From NCBI RefSeq assembly GCF_008245225.1, contig NZ_VTAW01000006.1, positions 1 through 64,000 on the forward strand: a stretch of 64,000 bases of DNA, written 5' to 3'. Positions 20,931 through 31,175 of the stretch are shown here, piece by piece. Source of the DNA: Natrialba swarupiae. GTDB taxonomy: Archaea > Halobacteriota > Halobacteria > Halobacteriales > Natrialbaceae. A model generated the notes under the pieces. That model was given only the letters and a program-made list of their open reading frames with translations. It was not told where the DNA came from and made no database searches. Each line of letters opens with the position of its first letter. Positions within the stretch are counted from its first letter, which is position 1. Position numbers and translations under genes: made by a program.

Positions 20931-21434
20931 TCAGCGCGTCAGCGTATCGACCGTGACGTGGCCGTCCTCGATATGAGCGACGAGCATCGTCTCGTGTGTG
21001 GCAGGGCTGGCCGCGGTCGCACTACCCGGGTTGAGAACCCGGATCCCGTCCCGAGCCGTGTCGACGACCTCGTGGGTGTGGCCCGCGACGACGACGGCGT
21101 TTTCGCCCGTATCGACCTCGTCGTACGCGATTTCGACCACCCGCCGGTGCCAGCCGCCCGGCGATCCCGTTCCGTGAGTGACGACGACGGTGACGTCCTC
21201 GAGGACGAGCGTGTCGGTTCGCGGTAACTCGAGCGTCGAGGGATCCATGTTTCCACGCACACAGGTTAGGTTTCCATCCGCGAGCGTAGCGATCCGGTCG
21301 TACGCCTCCCGCGAGTCGAAATCGCCGGTGTGGATCGTCCGACCGGCCGTTCGAACCTCCTCGGCCACCCAGTCGGGGAGCCCGGTCGCTCGAGACGGCA
21401 CGTGCGTGTCTCCGAGGATCGCTACTTGCGTCAT
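20931..21434 (-). CDS. YfcE-type metallophosphoesterase
   Basis: 167-residue calcineurin-like phosphoesterase of the short YfcE/MJ0936 group: GDTHVPSR (GDxH), HTGDFDS, CVRGNMDP (GNxD), VVTHGTG and AGHTHE give the metal ligands. Such enzymes act on phosphodiesters such as 2',3'-cAMP or model substrates in vitro. The conserved domain begins at residue 3, confirming the start. Divergent from the Nudix fusion, 61 nt apart. Natural substrate unknown. Confidence 0.83.
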   Translation of the reverse strand: MTQVAILGDTHVPSRATGLPDWVAEEVRTAGRTIHTGDFDSREAYDRIATLADGNLTCVRGNMDPSTLELPRTDTLVLEDVTVVVTHGTGSPGGWHRRVVEIAYDEVDTGENAVVVAGHTHEVVDTARDGIRVLNPGSATAASPATHETMLVAHIEDGHVTVDTLTR

Positions 21435-21495
21435 ACGCGGGGATACGACGTCGACTCCCGAAAGCGATTCCCCGGCGGCCGCCGTCGATCGACGT

Positions 21496-23043
21496 ATGAG
21501 CGAGCGCGATCCGACGCGTGCCAGGAGGGACGAAGACGGCGAACGCACCGACAGGGCCGGTGAGGACGACGATGAAGCTAAAAGTCACGTCGTCACCGCG
21601 TTCCTCCGGGACCGTGGCGAGGTGTTGTTGTTGTGCCGAAGCGACGTCGTCGGCACCTACGCGGGCCAGTGGAGTGGCGTCTCCGGTTTCGCCGAAGGGA
21701 GCCCCGACGGGCAGGTCCGCGTCGAGATTCGCGAGGAGACCGGTCTCTCCGACGACGGGGTCTCTCTCGTTCGGTCCGGGCGACCGATTCGATTCACCGA
21801 CGACGACCTCGAGCCGAGCCGAGAGTGGGTCGTCCACCCGTATCTGTTCGATCTGACGGCAGACTCCCGAGAGATCGAACTCGGCGAGGAACACGACGAG
21901 TTCGCGTGGACCGATCCGACCGAGATCGTCGCGGGCGACGCCGAAGCCGGTGTGCGTGCCACCGCAGCGGACTCCGAAGCCACTGTACGTGCCACCGCCG
22001 GAGACTCTGGCCACGACCTCGAGACGGTGCCGAAGCTCTGGACGGCCTACGAGCGCGTCGCACCGACGGTTCGATCGATCGCCGCCGACGACGACCACGG
22101 GGCTGCGTTCCTCTCGATCCGCGCACTCGAGGTACTTCGCGATCGGGCGGGATTGCTCGTCGCCGAGCGGGAGGCGTTCGGCACGGAACCGGACGAGGAG
22201 TGGGACGAACTCGCCGAACTGGCGACCAGACTGCTCGAGGCCCGTCCCGCGATGGCGGTCCTTCGAAACAGGGTGAACCGCGCGATGGCGACCGCGGCGG
22301 GGATCGACGCAACCGACGCCGCTGGGAGCAATTCCGACGGCTCCGACGACGGAACCGACGGCTCGAGTCGACGGGACGCAACGGCGGTTCTCGAGACGAC
22401 GCGTGGGGCGATCGACCGCGCGATCGCGGCGGACGCGGACGCCGCGGCGACCGCGGGCGAACACATCGAGGGACGGGTCGCGACGCTTTCGCGCTCGGGA
22501 ACGGTGCTCGAGGCCCTCCGTGCGGGGTCACCCACACGGGTGTTCGTCGCGGAATCGCGGCCGGCACGCGAGGGCGTCGCCGTCGCCGAGACGCTGGCGG
22601 CCGATACGGCGGTCGACTGTTCGGTGACGGTCCACGCCGACGCGGCCGCCGCGTCCGTCCTCGCCACCGAGTCGATCGATCGCGTCGTCGTCGGCGCGGA
22701 TACGATCCTGCCCGACGGTTCGGTCGTGAACAAGACTGGGACGCGAGCGCTCGCGACCGCCGCCACACGCGAAGGCGTTCCCGTGACCGTCGTCGCCGCG
22801 AGCGACAAAGTCTCGACCCGCGAGGAGGTCAACCTCGAGTCGGGCGATCGGACGGCGGTGTACGACGGTGACGCGCCCGTCGACGTCCTCAACCCGACGT
22901 TCGACGTGACGCCGCCAGGCTGCGTGAGCGAGATCGTCACCGAACGGGGGCGACTCGAGCCCGCAGCGGTAAGCGAAGTCACGGCGGAGTTGCGCGGCCT
23001 CGAGGATTGGAGAGCGGGCACGGGCGACGCTGCCAGCCGGTGA
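21496..23043 (+). CDS. Nudix hydrolase fused to eIF2B-alpha-like domain
   Basis: 515 residues, two domains. Residues about 28-150 form a Nudix domain; the box is degenerate, GFAEGSPDGQVRVEIREETGL containing REETG but lacking the standard G-x5-E spacing in part. Residues about 170-505 are an eIF2B-alpha/R15P-isomerase-like domain with LSRSGTVLEALRAG, GADTILPDGSVVNKTGT and DVLNPTFDVTPP. The position of the catalytic Cys of ribose-1,5-bisphosphate isomerases holds Ser here (LSRSGT), as in eIF2B-alpha, arguing against that activity. An insert rich in Asp and Ser separates subregions. A nucleotide-metabolism or regulatory role is likely. Confidence 0.75.
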   Translation: MSERDPTRARRDEDGERTDRAGEDDDEAKSHVVTAFLRDRGEVLLLCRSDVVGTYAGQWSGVSGFAEGSPDGQVRVEIREETGLSDDGVSLVRSGRPIRFTDDDLEPSREWVVHPYLFDLTADSREIELGEEHDEFAWTDPTEIVAGDAEAGVRATAADSEATVRATAGDSGHDLETVPKLWTAYERVAPTVRSIAADDDHGAAFLSIRALEVLRDRAGLLVAEREAFGTEPDEEWDELAELATRLLEARPAMAVLRNRVNRAMATAAGIDATDAAGSNSDGSDDGTDGSSRRDATAVLETTRGAIDRAIAADADAAATAGEHIEGRVATLSRSGTVLEALRAGSPTRVFVAESRPAREGVAVAETLAADTAVDCSVTVHADAAAASVLATESIDRVVVGADTILPDGSVVNKTGTRALATAATREGVPVTVVAASDKVSTREEVNLESGDRTAVYDGDAPVDVLNPTFDVTPPGCVSEIVTERGRLEPAAVSEVTAELRGLEDWRAGTGDAASR

Positions 23044-23308
23044 GACGACGCTGGCGACGCGGCGAATCGGGTCGGGGGATCGAAACGACAGATCGAAACC
23101 CCTCGGCGCGGTATCTCGAGGTGGCGGCAGTGACGAGGAGTTACCCCCACCGAGCCCCGTGTGACGAGGGATTTTCCCGAGCCGCCGTTCTCGAGACGGC
23201 TTCTCCGGTGAGCGACGGGAGACTTCGCCGGTGAGAAACGAGAGCCACGACGCCTCAGCGTCGACGAACGGGGTTACCTTCTAATGGGGTCAGCGCTGTA
23301 CGTTCCGT

Positions 23309-25192
23309 ATGGCTCCGTCGACCGGCGGTCGATCGTGTGTCGATCCGCTCGAGAACGTCGACGTTCTCTGTGTCGACGACGACCCATCTTCCGCGAGACT
23401 AACGCAGGCGTATCTCGAGCGTCGCCACCACGAGTTCGACGTTCGAATCGAACACCAGACTGCCGACGCACTCGAGCGACTCGAGACCGACCGATTCGAC
23501 TGCGTCGTCAGCGACTACGACATGCCGGAGATGAACGGCCTCGAGTTCCTCAACATGGTTCGCGACTCCTTCGGCGAGATTCCGTTCATCCTCTTTACCG
23601 GCAAGGGATCCGAAGAGATCGCGAGCGAGGCGATCTCTGCCGGTGTCACAGACTACCTTCGGAAGGAGACGGGCAAACACCAGTACGACGTCCTGGCGAA
23701 TCACGTCCGCAACGCCGTCGAGAGCAATCGCAGGCGGCGGACACTCGAGCGATCCCGCGCACTGTTCGAGACGACGTTCGACGACCCCGATCGACTGATC
23801 GCCGTGCTCGACCCGGACGGAACCGTCAGACGAGCGAACCGGCGACTGAGTACGTTCGTCGGGGTCGAAACGGACGATCTCGTCGGCCACCGCTACTGGG
23901 AGCTTCCGTGGCCGCGGGCATTCGAAGCGGCCGCACCCGATCTCGCGGAGTGGCTCGAGCGAGCGACAGCGGGTCGCCGGACGACCATCTCCTTCGAGTA
24001 CTCTTCGGAGAGTGGCGAACCGGTCACCGGTGAGGAAACGACCGAGTCACTCGTAACCGAGCACGTCTTCGTCGAAGCGGTCGCTCAGCCGGTGACGATC
24101 GACGGCGCCGTTGGGGCACTCGTCGTCGACGTCCACGACGCGAGCACGGCGGTGACGTGGGAACGAGAGGTCGAACTCAAAGACGCCGCGTTCGACGCTG
24201 CTCCGGTCGGGATGACCATTACCGACCCCTCTCTCGAGGACAACCCAATCGTCTATGCCAACGCGGCGTTCGAGCGCCTCACCGGCTATCCTCACGAGGA
24301 GGTCCTCGGACGGAACTGTCGGTTTCTCCAGGGCGAGGGGACGAATCCGGAGCCGGTCGACGCGATGCGCGAAGCCGTCGACGCAGAAGAGCCAGTGACG
24401 GTCGAACTCACGAACTACCGCAAAGACGGGACCACGTTCCACAACGAAGTGACGATCGCCCCCATCCGCGACGCAGATGGAACGGTCACTCACTTCGTTG
24501 GCTTCCAGAACGATATTACCGACCGACGGACGGCGTACGACCGCCTCGAGCGCGAACGCGATCGGTTAGAGGAGTTCGCGAGCGTCCTCTCGCACGACCT
24601 TCGGAATCCGCTAACCGCGGCGATGGGGTACGGAGAACTCGTCCGCGAAGACTGTTCGAGTCCGTTTCTCGACGATATCGAGGCGGCTCACGAACAGATC
24701 GAGCGGCTGATCGACGAAACGCTCGCCCTGGCGCGTGCCGGGAGTGTGGTCGGTTCGCTCGAACCGGTCTCGCTATCGGAACTCGCGGTCGACTCGTGGC
24801 AGACCGTCGATTCCGGCGATGGCTCGCTCGAGGTCGTCGACGACGAGCAGTTTCTCGCGGATCCGGGCCGAAGTCGACAGCTGTTCGAGAACCTCTTTCG
24901 AAACAGCCTCGAACACGGCGTCGACTCCGACGGACAGGGAGACGGTCCGGCGGTCACCGTCACCGTCGGCCCGCTTGGCGACGGGTTCTTCCTCGAGGAC
25001 GACGGCCCCGGAATCGCGCCTGCCGAGCGCGATCGCGTGTTCGAACGTGGGTACACGACGAGCGAGGAGGGCATCGGGCTGGGATTGCGGATCGTCGAGG
25101 AGATCGCCACCGGCCACGGGTGGACTGTCGCCGTACTCGAGGGAGGAGATGGCGGCGCGCGGTTCGAGATTACCGGGGTGGACCGACCGTGA
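23309..25192 (+). CDS. Hybrid sensor histidine kinase: receiver-PAS-LOV-kinase
   Basis: 627 residues, soluble. A receiver domain (about 16-135) has acidic VDDDP, phospho-acceptor Asp in SDYDMPEM (residue 69) and Lys in LRKETG. A PAS-like region (145-275) follows. The second PAS (285-410) carries the LOV photoreceptor motif GRNCRFLQG (Cys about 337), plus NYRKDGTTFHNEV and VGFQNDIT, which supply the Asn, Asn and Gln that hold flavin in LOV domains. HisKA (SHDLRNPL, His about 429) and HATPase (LFRNSLEHG, DDGPGI, GIGLGL) complete it. Phosphate presumably passes to the receiver of another protein. A flavin-based blue-light sensor is likely. Confidence 0.87.
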   Translation: MAPSTGGRSCVDPLENVDVLCVDDDPSSARLTQAYLERRHHEFDVRIEHQTADALERLETDRFDCVVSDYDMPEMNGLEFLNMVRDSFGEIPFILFTGKGSEEIASEAISAGVTDYLRKETGKHQYDVLANHVRNAVESNRRRRTLERSRALFETTFDDPDRLIAVLDPDGTVRRANRRLSTFVGVETDDLVGHRYWELPWPRAFEAAAPDLAEWLERATAGRRTTISFEYSSESGEPVTGEETTESLVTEHVFVEAVAQPVTIDGAVGALVVDVHDASTAVTWEREVELKDAAFDAAPVGMTITDPSLEDNPIVYANAAFERLTGYPHEEVLGRNCRFLQGEGTNPEPVDAMREAVDAEEPVTVELTNYRKDGTTFHNEVTIAPIRDADGTVTHFVGFQNDITDRRTAYDRLERERDRLEEFASVLSHDLRNPLTAAMGYGELVREDCSSPFLDDIEAAHEQIERLIDETLALARAGSVVGSLEPVSLSELAVDSWQTVDSGDGSLEVVDDEQFLADPGRSRQLFENLFRNSLEHGVDSDGQGDGPAVTVTVGPLGDGFFLEDDGPGIAPAERDRVFERGYTTSEEGIGLGLRIVEEIATGHGWTVAVLEGGDGGARFEITGVDRP

Positions 25193-25212: not shown

Positions 25213-26208
25213 CTACGGACGGGGCGCGGCCCTTTGCAGCGCCGTTTCGGCCACGTTGCCGCCGTAGTCGGCGCTCCGGGAGAGTGAATCGAGGACGAGC
25301 CCGAGCGACTGCGCCTGAACCGGATCGAGATTACGCAACAGATCGTCGATACGTCTGGTGTGTTCGTCGATCTCGAGGACGGACTCGAGGGCGTCGTGTC
25401 CGAGGTCGGTCGCTCGTTCGGCGTCGTTGGCGAACAGCGCGTCCATCGACTTCTCGACGACGGTCGCGACGTCCGCGTGGAGGGCGAGCAGCGCGTCGGC
25501 GACGTCCTCGGGAATGTCCTCGAGCTTGCGCGCAAGCTGGGCGATCTTGACGGCGTGATCGGCGATCCGCTCGAGTTGGCGAGCACTCGAGTGGTACTCG
25601 AAACAGTCCTCGCGGTGGACGCCGAGTTCCTCGGCCGCGCGGGGGGAACGGAGCGTCGCGCGGAAGATCCGGGAGACGACCAGCCAGAGCCGATCGACGT
25701 CGTCGTCGCGTTCGGTAACGTCGCGGGCGACGTCGTCGTCGTTCTCGACGAGCGCGGTCACCGCGTCCTCGAGCATCGACGCCGCGATGAGTCGCATCCG
25801 GGTGACGGCGTTGACGATCGACAGCTCCGAGGAGTCGAGCAAGTCCTGGACGACGACGCGATCCGATCCCTCCTCGACGATTTCGACCCCGATCAACCCC
25901 TGGATCGCACTCCGGATCGCCCGACGCTGGTCGGTCGTGATCCGCCCCGCCTCGAGCGTGATGACGTCGAATCCGCCGACGTACATCGTCATCACGGCCC
26001 GGATCAGCTGTTCGTCCTCGAGACTCGAGACGTCGAGCGTTCCTTCCTGATGGGTTTCGTCGCTCTGTGGCGTCACGAGCAGCGTGTCGTCCTCCGTATA
26101 GATTTCGACGGTGGTTCCGCTACTGACGTCGTTTTCCGTCGCCCACGTTTTCGGGAGCGAGACGGTGTACGTCGACCCACCCGTCACCTGGACCTTTCGG
26201 GTCTCCAT
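25213..26208 (-). CDS. AbrB-PhoU fusion, putative phosphate-responsive regulator
   Basis: 331 residues. N-terminal AbrB/SpoVT-type DNA-binding hairpin (KVQVTGGSTYTVSLPKTWA, about residues 5-48), then PhoU helical bundles with RQLERIADHAVKIAQLA and a second EIDEHTRRIDDLL region. PhoU proteins link the Pst transporter to phosphate signalling; the AbrB part suggests direct DNA binding. It is divergent from pstS across 473 nt. Close paralogues lie at 31242 and 32376. Regulation of pst is inferred from position. Confidence 0.82.
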   Translation of the reverse strand: METRKVQVTGGSTYTVSLPKTWATENDVSSGTTVEIYTEDDTLLVTPQSDETHQEGTLDVSSLEDEQLIRAVMTMYVGGFDVITLEAGRITTDQRRAIRSAIQGLIGVEIVEEGSDRVVVQDLLDSSELSIVNAVTRMRLIAASMLEDAVTALVENDDDVARDVTERDDDVDRLWLVVSRIFRATLRSPRAAEELGVHREDCFEYHSSARQLERIADHAVKIAQLARKLEDIPEDVADALLALHADVATVVEKSMDALFANDAERATDLGHDALESVLEIDEHTRRIDDLLRNLDPVQAQSLGLVLDSLSRSADYGGNVAETALQRAAPRP

Positions 26209-26681: not shown

Positions 26682-27770
26682 ATGACGGACAACCAGTCCG
26701 GTCGAACCGGTTTCAGTGGGGTATCGCGGCGTAACTTCGTGGCTATCGGCGCGACGGCGGGGATCATCGGCGTCGCTGGCTGTAGTAGTGACGACGGCGG
26801 AAGCGGCGGCAACGGCGGTGGAAACGGCGGCGGAAATGGTGGCGGAAACGGGGGAAGCGGCCTCTCGGGAACCATCGACGCGTCCGGATCCAACACCGTC
26901 GCCCCGATCACCTCGTGGGCCGGCGAGAACTTCTCGAACGAGTTCCCGGACGTCCTCGTCGACGTCGCGCCGGAGGGCACCGGTGCGGGCTTTCAGGAGT
27001 TCTGCCGCGCTAACTCCGACGTCCAGAGTGCGAGCCGAGCGATTACCGAAGAGGAGATCGATCTCTGTGGTGAGAACGACGTCAACTACGGCTTCCTCGA
27101 GGTCGGCCTCGACGGCCTCTCGGTCGTCAAGAACTCCGCGAACGACTGGGTCGACAGTATCACACTCGACGAACTCCAGTTGATCTGGGAGTTCGAAGCG
27201 ACCGACGAAATCACTCACTGGAGCGACGTTCGCGACGAGTGGCCCGACGAGGAGATGCAACTGCACGCCCGTGACAGCGCGTCCGGGACGTTCGACTACT
27301 TCACCGAGAACATCTGTGGGGAGCGAGGAAACATTAGGGACGACTACTCCGCGACTAGCCAGACGAACGAGATCATGGCTGCGGTCGCGGACAACGAGCA
27401 CGGTTTCGGTTGGGGTGGACTGGGATACCTCCGAGAGATCGAGGACGATCAGCCGATCGAAGCCGTCCCCGTCGAGAGCGACGCCGATGGCGAGTTCTAT
27501 CTCCCGACGCAGGAAAACATCGAAGAAGGGCTGTACTCCCCGCTGGCGCGTCCGCTGTTTGCGTTCGTCAACATCGCGAGTCTCGAAGACCGAACGGACC
27601 TCATCGGTTCGTTCGCTCGGTTCTACACTAACGATTCCCAGCAGTTCGCCCGTGACGAGGGCTTCTACGCTGCCCCCGACGCAGTTACCGAGGAGAACCA
27701 CGACAAAATCGACGACTGGCTCGACCAGGTCGGCGCATCGCCGGACGACCTCACCGTGCAACGCGACTAG
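26682..27770 (+). CDS. pstS: Phosphate ABC transporter, substrate-binding lipoprotein
   Basis: 362 residues. Tat motif SRRNF (15-19) and lipobox VAGC (Cys34), then a Gly/Asn linker of about 25 residues. The binding domain shows SGSNTVAPITSWAGE, GTGAGFQEFCR, SRAI, and RDSASGTFDYFTE, the loops that bind phosphate in PstS. It delivers phosphate to PstCA at the cell surface. First gene of pstSCAB-phoU; pstC follows after 12 nt. Expected to be induced by phosphate limitation. Confidence 0.95.
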   Translation: MTDNQSGRTGFSGVSRRNFVAIGATAGIIGVAGCSSDDGGSGGNGGGNGGGNGGGNGGSGLSGTIDASGSNTVAPITSWAGENFSNEFPDVLVDVAPEGTGAGFQEFCRANSDVQSASRAITEEEIDLCGENDVNYGFLEVGLDGLSVVKNSANDWVDSITLDELQLIWEFEATDEITHWSDVRDEWPDEEMQLHARDSASGTFDYFTENICGERGNIRDDYSATSQTNEIMAAVADNEHGFGWGGLGYLREIEDDQPIEAVPVESDADGEFYLPTQENIEEGLYSPLARPLFAFVNIASLEDRTDLIGSFARFYTNDSQQFARDEGFYAAPDAVTEENHDKIDDWLDQVGASPDDLTVQRD

Positions 27771-27782
27771 CTACCCAACCCA

Positions 27783-28784
27783 ATGAGTACGGACGTAACC
27801 GACAGATCAGGGCCGGGGATACGCGGCGACGGGGCGGTCGGCGCAGATAACGCGACCGACCGGCGAGTCCGCCGACTCCTCTTTGGCTGTGCCGTAATCA
27901 CGGTCCTGACCACGCTTGCGATTTTTTTCGTGTTGATCGACAACGCGGCGAGTTACTTCTTCGGCGCGAAACTCACCGAGATGCTACTCGGAGCGAGCGT
28001 CGAGCGAACGGTGACGTTCACCGAGTTCTTCAGCGGAACGCGGTGGGCGCCCGACCACGCGACGCCGGGTCACGGCGTATTACCGATCGTCTTCGGGACG
28101 CTCGCGATCACCGTCGGCGCGGCGTTCGTCTCGATCCCGATCGGGACGGCGACGGCGATCTATCTCTCGGAGTACTCCTCGAAGAGCGTTCGCTCGAAGC
28201 TCAAGCCGACCCTCGAGATCCTCGCCGGGATTCCGACGATCGTCTACGGCTACTTCGCGATCGCCTTTATCAACCCGGTGATCGTCGCACCGATCGCCGA
28301 GACGCTGTTCGGCATCAACATGGGCCGGTACAGCCTGCTCTCGGGAATGCTCGTCGTCGGCATCATGACGATTCCGATGGTCTCCTCGATCAGCGAGGAC
28401 GCCATGTCGGCCGTGCCGGACGATCTCAGAAACGGTGCGTACGCCCTCGGCGCGACGAAGTTCGACGTCTCGACGAGGATCGTCCTCCCGGCATCGATTT
28501 CGGGCGTCTTCGCGTCGTACATTCTCGCCGTCTCCCGGGCGATCGGTGAGACGATGGCGGTCACGCTCGCCGCCGGGATGCAACCCCAGATCACGGCCAA
28601 CCCGTTCGCCGAGATCATGACGATGACGGCGTACATGGTGAAGATGGCGCGCGGAACGACCGCCGTCGGAACCGTCGAGTACCAGTCGCTGTTCGCCGTC
28701 GGCCTGTTGTTGTTCGTCATGACGCTGAGTATGAATCTTCTCAACGACTGGTTCAAACGCCGATTCCAGGAGGAGTACCGATGA
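27783..28784 (+). CDS. pstC: Phosphate ABC transporter permease PstC
   Basis: 333 residues with six predicted helices and a hydrophilic N-terminus of about 30 residues. The permease region begins near VFGTLAITVGAAFVSIPIGTA; the EAA-like coupling loop lies around DLRNGAYALGATKFDVSTRIVLP. Forms the membrane channel with PstA. Its final four bases overlap pstA (ATGA), so translation is coupled. Confidence 0.93.
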   Translation: MSTDVTDRSGPGIRGDGAVGADNATDRRVRRLLFGCAVITVLTTLAIFFVLIDNAASYFFGAKLTEMLLGASVERTVTFTEFFSGTRWAPDHATPGHGVLPIVFGTLAITVGAAFVSIPIGTATAIYLSEYSSKSVRSKLKPTLEILAGIPTIVYGYFAIAFINPVIVAPIAETLFGINMGRYSLLSGMLVVGIMTIPMVSSISEDAMSAVPDDLRNGAYALGATKFDVSTRIVLPASISGVFASYILAVSRAIGETMAVTLAAGMQPQITANPFAEIMTMTAYMVKMARGTTAVGTVEYQSLFAVGLLLFVMTLSMNLLNDWFKRRFQEEYR

Positions 28785-29680
28785 GTTCCGAAACGGATCA
28801 CGACCTGTTCGCCGACGTCGACCTCGGGTGGGAACACCGGAAGAATCGAATCTTCCTCGGACTCATCTTCGCGGCGTCGATGTTCGGCGTCCTCATGCTG
28901 GCACTGCTGTTGTTCGACGTCGCCACCGACTTTTACGTCGGACTGACCGAGTACAACATCAACCTCGTCGACTTCTTCACCCGAGACGGCTCCCGACGCG
29001 AGGAACTGTCCGGCTTCAGGGGTGCGATCGTCGCGTCGATCACGTTGATGGTCCTGGTCACATTCCTGGCGTTTTTCGTCGGCGTCGGCTCCGCGATCTA
29101 CCTCGAGGAGTACGCGCCGGACAATCGCATCACGCGACTCATCGAGGCGAATCTGGCGAACCTCGCGGGAGTCCCCTCGATCGTCTACGGACTGCTCGGC
29201 CTGGCGGCGTTCGTCAACGGAATCGGGATGGGACCGATCCTGCTGGCCGGGGCGATCGCGCTTGGCTTGCTCGTCATGCCGATCATCATCGTCTCCGCAC
29301 AGGAGGCACTGCGCGCGGTCCCAGACGGCGTCAGAAACGGCTCGCTGGCAACTGGCGCGACCCAGTGGCAGACGATCCGGAACGTCGTGCTCCCGGCGGC
29401 GATGCCCGGCATCATGACCGGAACCATCCTCGCGCTCGCGCGGGCGATCGGTGAAACCGCTCCGCTGATCATGGTCGGCGCGATCTTCATCAACCGGATG
29501 CCCAGAGGGCCGTTCGATCGATTCAGCGCGATGCCGACCCAGATCTACAACTGGGCGAACGAACCGAGCCAGCACTTCATCCACCTCGCTGCGACCGGGA
29601 TCGTGGTGTTGCTCTCGTTTCTGTTCGTGATGAACCTGATCGCGATCTACATCCGCCACCGGTACGAGACGGAGATTTAA
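28781..29680 (+). CDS. pstA: Phosphate ABC transporter permease PstA
   Basis: 299 residues, six predicted helices. Permease core visible as [15 protein letters not shown], the EAA-like loop [25 protein letters not shown], and [11 protein letters not shown]. Pairs with PstC to form the phosphate channel. pstB begins two bases after the stop codon. Confidence 0.93.
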
Positions 29681-29681
29681 C

Positions 29682-30512
29682 ATGTCGACAGAAGAACAAT
29701 CGCTGATCACGACCGAAGTACAGACCGAGAACACGACGCGTGCCGACCGGCCAGACGAGACCGTTCTCGAGGCCAGAAGCCTCGACGTCTACTACGGCCA
29801 GGATCAAGCGCTTACCGACGTCTCGATCGAGATTCCCGAGCACAAGGTGACCGCGATGATCGGCCCGTCGGGCTGTGGGAAATCGACGTTCCTGCGGTCG
29901 ATCAACCGGATGAACGACCAGATCGACGCCTGTCGCGTCGACGGTGAGCTGTCTTTCCACGGGAAGAACGTCTACGACGAGGACGTCGATCCGGTCGCAC
30001 TACGGCGAAAGATCGGACAGGTGTTCCAGAAACCGAACCCGTTCCCCAAGTCGATCTACGAAAACGTCGCCTACGGGCTTCGCGTGCAGGGGACGGTCGA
30101 CGACGTCGACCTCGACGACGCCGTCGAACAGGCCCTGCGTGGCGCGGCCCTCTGGGACGAAGTGGAGGGCAAACTCGACTCGAGCGGGCTCGACCTCTCG
30201 GGCGGACAACAACAGCGTCTCTGTATCGCGCGGGCGATCGCGACCGATCCCGAGGTCATCCTGATGGACGAGCCGACGTCGGCGCTCGACCCCGTCGCGG
30301 CGTCGAAGATCGAGGACCTGATCGACGAACTCGTCGAGGAGTACACGGTCGTCATCGTCACCCACAACATGCAACAGGCCGCCCGCATCTCCGATCGGAC
30401 GGCGGTCTTTCTCACCGGCGGCGAACTCGTCGAATTCGACGACACCGCGAGTATCTTCGAGGACCCGGCCGACGACCGCGTTGAAGATTACATCACCGGC
30501 AAGTTCGGCTGA
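29682..30512 (+). CDS. pstB: Phosphate ABC transporter ATPase PstB
   Basis: 276 residues. ATPase subunit with Walker [11 protein letters not shown]-loop region [20 protein letters not shown] (typical of PstB), signature LSGGQQQR, Walker [14 protein letters not shown] and switch His in [10 protein letters not shown]. An N-terminal acidic extension of about 25 residues precedes the domain. Drives phosphate import with PstSCA; phoU starts three bases later. Confidence 0.95.
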
Positions 30513-30515
30513 TCC

Positions 30516-31175
30516 ATGGCGCGAATCGAGTACCAAGAACAGCTGGAGCAACTCCGCGAGGACGTCCTCGAGATGGGCGACGTCGTCTGTCAGCGCCTGC
30601 GCCGGGCACTCGAGGCCTACGAGACGACCGACGCCGCGCTGGCGAATCGCGTGATCGCGGGTGATCACGAAGTAAACGAACTGTATCTCGACCTCGAGGG
30701 AGAGTGTATCGACCTCTTTGCGCTCCAGCAGCCGGTCGCAGGCGACCTCCGGTTTATCGCCTCGTCGTTCAAGATCATCACCGACCTCGAGCGGATCGCC
30801 GACCTCGCGGTCAACTTAGCCGAGTACGCGAAACGAGGCGACCCCGAGCGGTACCCCGATATCGACGTCGTCCACATCGGCACCGAAATCGTGTTGCTGG
30901 TCGAAGACGCGATGCGGGCGTACGCGACGAACGATGCCGACGCCACCTACGAGGTCGCCGCAACCGACGACGAGATCGACGAACTCTGTGGTCGTGCGAG
31001 TCGTATCGTCGCCCGCGACCTCGTCGAAACTGATGTCGTCGACGACGACCTCCTCGAGGAAGTTTCGCGAATGCTGTTGACGATTCGCGATCTCGAGCGG
31101 GTCGGCGATCACGCGGTGAACATCGCCGCGCGAACGCTGTATATGGTCGAGAACGACGACGAACTGATCTACTGA
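30516..31175 (+). CDS. phoU: Phosphate transport regulator PhoU
   Basis: 219 residues, two PhoU three-helix bundles with the metal-binding E/DxxxD signatures DLERIADLAVNLAEYA and DLERVGDHAVNIAARTL. PhoU modulates Pst activity and, in bacteria, histidine-kinase signalling; here only the Pst-linked role is supported. Fifth gene of the pst operon. Other PhoU-domain proteins in the region carry extra DNA-binding domains that this one lacks. Confidence 0.93.
   Translation: MARIEYQEQLEQLREDVLEMGDVVCQRLRRALEAYETTDAALANRVIAGDHEVNELYLDLEGECIDLFALQQPVAGDLRFIASSFKIITDLERIADLAVNLAEYAKRGDPERYPDIDVVHIGTEIVLLVEDAMRAYATNDADATYEVAATDDEIDELCGRASRIVARDLVETDVVDDDLLEEVSRMLLTIRDLERVGDHAVNIAARTLYMVENDDELIY

Follow-up and report, generated by a model that had tools for sequence, protein, structure and literature searches.

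Histidine kinases with a LOV domain are already known from archaea. Losi et al. 2014 described archaeal LOV histidine kinases, including an architecture with a receiver domain (PMC4844311), and Valle et al. 2025 reported LOV domains of haloarchaea preceded by receiver, PAS and GAF domains and followed mostly by kinases at the C-terminus, as well as a photocycle, at up to 3 M salt, in one haloarchaeal LOV domain (PMC12202551). The nearest solved relatives of the LOV domain studied here are YtvA LOV and the engineered LOV kinase YF1 (PDB 2mwg, 4gcz) by sequence, and YF1 also by fold. A precedent for a receiver serving as an input is LvrB, the prototype Rec-controlled histidine kinase, which likewise has an N-terminal receiver upstream of a helix and kinase but is a bacterial Rec-DHp-CA protein without PAS or LOV (PMC13269768).

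The kinase gene examined here lies in a stretch of 64,000 nucleotides of Natrialba swarupiae DNA (contig NZ_VTAW01000006.1), which is the whole stretch that was analysed and is referred to as the window. A complete open reading frame coincides exactly with the coordinates 23309-25192 on the plus strand, and Pfam matches together with inspection of the sequence gave the domain order REC-PAS-LOV-HisKA-HATPase. The features of the gene are as follows.

23309..25192, plus strand: kinase open reading frame, 627 amino acids; the GTG at codon 12 might serve as the start instead.
23363..23677, plus strand: N-terminal receiver (REC), residues 19-123 (Pfam Response_reg, E 9.8e-22), with the acidic cluster at D23, the acceptor D71, T97 and K119.
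23780..24142, plus strand: first PAS-like region, residues about 158-278, tentatively assigned from a second PAS_4 stretch whose place is not given.
24191..24529, plus strand: LOV domain, residues 295-407, assigned from PAS_4/PAS_9, the YtvA match, pLDDT and Foldseek.
24308..24334, plus strand: GRNCRFLQG, residues 334-342, aligned to YtvA C62; the predicted adduct-forming Cys337 is at 24317-24319.
24413..24451, plus strand: NYRKDGTTFHNEV, residues 369-381, with the predicted flavin-contacting Asn369 and Asn379; His378 is at 24440-24442.
24497..24520, plus strand: VGFQNDIT, residues 397-404, with the predicted flavin-contacting Gln400; DIT is the start of the signal helix.
24518..24592, plus strand: J-alpha or signal helix from the LOV domain to the H-box; helix 404-448 in the model, with 27 residues from the D of DIT to His429.
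24566..24742, plus strand: HisKA (DHp), residues 420-478 (Pfam, E 5.6e-14); the phospho-acceptor His429 is at 24593-24595.
24860..25174, plus strand: HATPase_c, residues 518-622 (Pfam, E 7e-15), with N-box N532, G1 box DDGPG with D564, and G2 box GIGLGL.

The H-box, N-box, G1 and G2 residues of a HisKA-type kinase are present (H429, N532, D564 in DDGPG, and GIGLGL), and the listed residues of the receiver, which is N-terminal to the kinase, are intact. Pfam placed a PAS_9 match at residues 299-405 (E 2e-31) and two stretches of PAS_4 in the protein. The first PAS-like region, where the pLDDT of the predicted model drops to 26, was not picked up by our own LOV/PAS profile, which did find this region in several relatives.

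When the LOV region was searched with phmmer, the YtvA LOV domain of B. subtilis matched at E 1.2e-37, far beyond chance, in an alignment spanning residues 5-123 of the query. Thirteen of the 14 compared positions match YtvA, the exception being W103, which is a His here, and YtvA residues C62, N94, N104, Q123, R63 and R79 are all kept. We take N94, N104 and Q123 to hold the isoalloxazine ring and R63 and R79 to be the phosphate-binding Arg pair. A total of 151 distinct PDB sequences matched at E 1e-5 or better, and among the best 60 of these 151, YtvA is followed by YF1, LOV kinases of Meiothermus and Brucella, aureochromes and phototropins. Residues 301-400 were modelled at pLDDT 92-96; the top PDB match in Foldseek is the LOV kinase YF1 (4gcz, E 2.0e-29), and comparison with the solved Brucella LOV domain gave TMt 0.90-0.96 and rmsd 0.6-0.8 Å. 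The full-length model has a pTM of only 0.38, therefore the arrangement of the domains in the kinase is not established by it. The first-pass annotation of this DNA had read a complete LOV signature (GRNCRFLQG, NYRKDGTTFHNEV and VGFQNDIT), which is indeed present at the sites given, with one deviation that it did not flag, FHN for the usual FWN; in the alignment that it had proposed as a check, Cys337, both Asn and the Gln match YtvA. A light input to a two-component kinase, which it had considered likely, is well supported by the sequence and the predicted fold.

Judged from its sequence and model, the protein is most probably a soluble haloarchaeal histidine kinase that senses blue light and takes phosphorylation as a second input. 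The LOV domain would bind FMN (or FAD), and blue light would induce a reversible adduct between flavin C4a and Cys337. The resulting change would pass through Gln400 to the heptad-spaced signal helix and on to the kinase, where it would alter the balance of autophosphorylation and phosphatase activity at His429, and the phosphoryl group would then be handed to a response regulator elsewhere in the genome. The receiver is intact and stands at the N-terminus; on the precedent of LvrB it is best seen as an input that would control the kinase once another kinase has phosphorylated Asp71, and the protein may integrate light with another signal.

In its architecture, the protein is a canonical LOV kinase of an already described kind. 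The first-pass annotation called the combination of LOV and N-terminal receiver unusual for an archaeon; this is unsupported, since REC-(PAS)-LOV kinases occur in many haloarchaeal genera and are in print in two papers. A class-wide search at the E 1e-22 level found a LOV-like match in 347 of 391 haloarchaeal genomes; this cut-off, checked in the host genome, parts LOV from other PAS domains there (the next match being at 4.7e-17). The REC-(PAS)-LOV-HisKA-HATPase order was found, among named loci, in at least the genera Natrialba, Halorubrum, Natronomonas, Halorubellus, Halogeometricum, Haloferax, Haloarcula, Halosimplex, Natronorubrum and Halobacterium, and the best named relatives of the window kinase, among the matches listed, are haloarchaeal. 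The archaeal LOV kinases of PMC4844311 and the Lake Diamante LOV domains of PMC12202551 have receiver, PAS and GAF domains as additional units and share the GxNCRFLQ motif with the window protein. The host genome itself has three matches at E 1e-22, namely the window kinase, an apparent Bat-type regulator with a Cys-bearing LOV domain (L002), and a protein resembling a GAF-PAS-LOV-kinase (L003); the Bat and GAF labels are both readings from the sequence.

Within this family, the LOV-kinase part of the window protein is nearest to REC-LOV-HisKA-HATPase proteins without a PAS domain, with 60% identity to one of them (L013), and the tree joins it to this PAS-less group at 84/86, a fork of moderate support that is not starred in a tree that flags long branches. 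The PAS-less kinases (L013, L014, L015, L017, L018 and L020) have no intervening region between REC and LOV, and the window protein is about 140 residues longer there. Because its LOV-kinase part is closest to theirs, the residues that separate REC from LOV probably represent an insertion when set against these kinases. No orthologue was found in a family search of 125 genomes including its own, with ten candidates scored per genome, in which the best full-length match was 45% identical; over the LOV-kinase part the best named locus, among the matches listed, reached 56%.

The adduct-forming Cys was considered across the relatives, since the first-pass annotation had named its loss in close relatives as an outcome that would refute its LOV reading; no such loss was seen. 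It is kept in 47 of 48 other LOV rows from loci fetched by overall similarity, best first (two of which, L011 and L012, are identical), the sole exception being L003 of the same genome, and in 12 of 12 aligned LOV-kinase rows, comprising the window and 11 hand-chosen relatives. In a larger set of 102 distinct LOV segments scoring above 140 bits with our own profile, 98 have Cys and the other four carry His, Arg, Phe or Tyr; this set counts the window twice, once cut differently, includes pattern-biased named loci, and leaves out the lower rows, mostly bacterial, and L133 with Leu for Cys. With the threshold lowered to 60 bits, and with the window copies and ordinary PAS domains counted in, Cys is present in 130 of 140 rows. 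The named loci came from two peptide patterns and give minimum counts only; since one of these patterns holds the Cys and the matches listed are a lower bound, Cys counts that include them are biased. LOV-like domains in which the Cys is replaced were observed in Haloferax gibbonsii (L078, His), Halorientalis (L083, Arg), Natronomonas (L127, Phe) and Zavarzinella (L133, Leu). In the host genome, L003 (C72:29177-29545, minus strand) is a paralogous LOV kinase that reads GRSYRFLQG, with Tyr for the adduct Cys. All 19 other loci fetched with the L003 LOV domain keep the Cys, which points to a loss of Cys in the L003 lineage.

Haloarchaea live with steep oxygen gradients, which lends something to the alternative that the LOV domain binds flavin but acts mainly as a redox or oxygen sensor, or through flavin photoreduction, rather than by a Cys adduct. 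The Tyr-bearing paralogue L003 fits such a function, and so does the Cys-less LOV-like domain of halobacterial Bat, which binds flavin and responds to photoreduction (PMC4682037). We consider it very unlikely, because a lineage that makes no adduct would be expected to lose the Cys, and the window protein has Cys337, as do all the aligned LOV-kinases at this position.

We then compared the linkers on either side of the LOV domain. From the D of DIT to the His of the H-box, 21 of 26 distinct linkers have 27 residues, four have 20 and one has 48, in a count that covers H-boxes recognised by our own pattern. All 26, the window included, equal 6 modulo 7, as a coiled coil demands; because 21 of them share one length, the independent evidence amounts to three lengths. 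The window linker is 9 residues shorter than that of YF1. Inverted YF1 variants fall essentially in the +1 register (PMC11164954), whereas the register of the haloarchaeal linkers differs from that of YF1 by +5, so that neither the light-repressed register of YF1 itself nor the inverted +1 register applies. Prediction of light polarity from the linker register was dropped for this difference from both YF1 classes, and light-on cannot be told from light-off in this way. On the receiver side, the distance from the receiver Lys to the LOV Cys is 76 residues in five and 75 in one of the six PAS-less relatives listed; it is 192, 193, 199 and other values in PAS-bearing relatives, and 218 in the window protein. 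This spacing is constant within groups but takes several registers between them, and thus gives no support for one continuous register.

The one compared position at which the window LOV domain departs from YtvA is His378, at the Trp position of the usual FWN motif. Trp occupies this position in 97 of 100 other distinct LOV segments, the remainder being two Val and one Tyr with no His; it is thus usual but not essential. PMC12202551 calls FWN hyperconserved, and the window protein has FHN instead. ALovD-1, the one domain tested in that paper, stands second among the three PAS domains of its kinase and carries Tyr in this motif. In YF1 and SB2F1, the Trp forms a hydrogen bond with the D-I/V-T motif and ties the J-alpha helix to the LOV core (PMC13322254). 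The DIT motif is kept in the window protein, and since His378 replaces the DIT-bonding, helix-anchoring Trp, coupling to the kinase could be altered. It is very improbable that the protein is an integrator of light and phosphorylation in which the receiver, the inserted PAS and the LOV domain would be stacked on one coiled coil, with the Trp-to-His change giving a protonation-dependent or inverted light coupling unlike that of other LOV kinases. We regard it as very unlikely that the Trp-to-His change cuts a still photocycling LOV domain off from the kinase, so that the receiver or the PAS domain would be the effective input. Such uncoupling would fit a His378 unmatched among the 100 other distinct segments and the helix-anchoring role of the Trp in YF1 and SB2F1 (PMC13322254), but His is likewise able to hydrogen-bond, and the other 13 compared positions, the DIT motif and the linker register are all kept, which argues for retained function.

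The gene is flanked by the following features of the window.

21178-23043: e2b2-NUDIX fusion gene, upstream of the kinase.
23123-23186, plus strand: non-coding element, box C/D sRNA, in the gap that separates the kinase from the e2b2-NUDIX gene.
25213-26208: AbrB-PhoU fusion gene, directly downstream of the kinase, convergent with it and not co-transcribed.
26682-31175: pst-phoU cluster, downstream of the AbrB-PhoU gene.

The names pstC and pstA are readings from the sequence. Between 25213 and 33380, four PhoU-domain genes surround one pst operon, and two of them also have a MazE/AbrB-like domain. At the other end, positions 1-2000 of the window have a GC content of 47%, against 57-72% in the other 2-kb steps, and are perhaps mobile DNA. 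In a congener (G038), homology to the window ends at 23201 and restarts at 25213, with about 240 unrelated bases between. The 24 named LOV loci (L069-L092) were examined with flanks of up to 7 kb, several of them cut by contig ends. One locus (L083) has a 28%-identical match to pstB, and another (L078) a 67%-identical match to hydantoinase A, whose gene in the window is located farther upstream. Clustering of the flanking open reading frames of these 24 loci by blastp, with 201 frames passing length and acidity filters, revealed no partner gene conserved between genera, therefore the adjacent pst operon is probably a coincidence. Six clusters spanned three or more loci, five of which contain Halorubrum only and represent one orthologous site. 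The sixth (L075, L080, L084, L090 and L092) is a 1404-aa frame, presumably a spurious one antisense to the kinase genes. A conserved operon with pst was ruled out, since the site is kinase-free in the congener and the 24 loci do not have this context bar the one weak pstB match. Light control of phosphate uptake, in which the kinase would regulate the adjoining pst operon and PhoU-like genes, is most improbable even though the AbrB-PhoU fusion and pst-phoU cluster directly follow it, for the congener keeps the order e2b2, AbrB-PhoU, pst with the kinase absent, the kinase and AbrB-PhoU genes are convergent and not on one transcript, and AbrB-PhoU, pstS, pstC, pstA and phoU are found in none of the 24 named loci at E 1e-15.

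The element upstream of the kinase is class-wide: in the family, 114 of 125 genomes have it, and in the class, 238 of 292 do. It is usually present once per genome, with two matches in a few. Rfam gave no match above any family cut-off, the only match up to E 5 having 12 bits. The 37 distinct copies, from the window and 41 loci, have a terminal stem, two invariant UGACGA boxes and two C(C/U)GA boxes, and in two copies one compensatory change has turned the stem from GGCGGC/GCCGCC into GACGGC/GCCGTC. Set against the box C/D consensus, these boxes and the terminal stem identify the element as a box C/D sRNA. The host rRNAs matched the archaeal LSU model at 2833 bits and the SSU model at 1584.5, but these models exceed the cut-off in bacterial control genomes too, so the scores by themselves are no proof of an archaeal host; the haloarchaeal placement comes from the best named relatives. 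An invariant guide, GUUACCCCC, extended by the A that precedes it in the window, forms a perfect 10-base duplex with CGGGGGUAACUAU in the host 23S rRNA; of 20,000 shuffled 10-mers, 226 likewise had a perfect match in the two rRNA loci. A longer guide pairing that needs five G-U pairs lies in the same rRNA locus, outside the 23S gene. An exact-pattern search for guide targets found none in any RNA gene, and no convincing target was found for the second guide. By the five-nucleotide rule, which gives the target position of a box C/D sRNA, we take the target to be G1909 (E. coli numbering). For G-1950 of Haloferax volcanii (1909 in E. coli), a study from 2008 reported a C/D box sRNA candidate that has homologues in 25 archaeal genomes (PMC2584109). 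Because that candidate targets exactly this position, the element at 23123-23186 is most likely the same sRNA.

Archaeal LOV kinases are widespread, and the accessible text of PMC4844311 and PMC12202551 reports no in vivo role for them and a single characterised domain. With His378, the window kinase offers natural variation in the place from which LOV domains hand on their signal, which leaves the picture of the family unchanged. The gene is a reasonable test case for light changing haloarchaeal two-component output.
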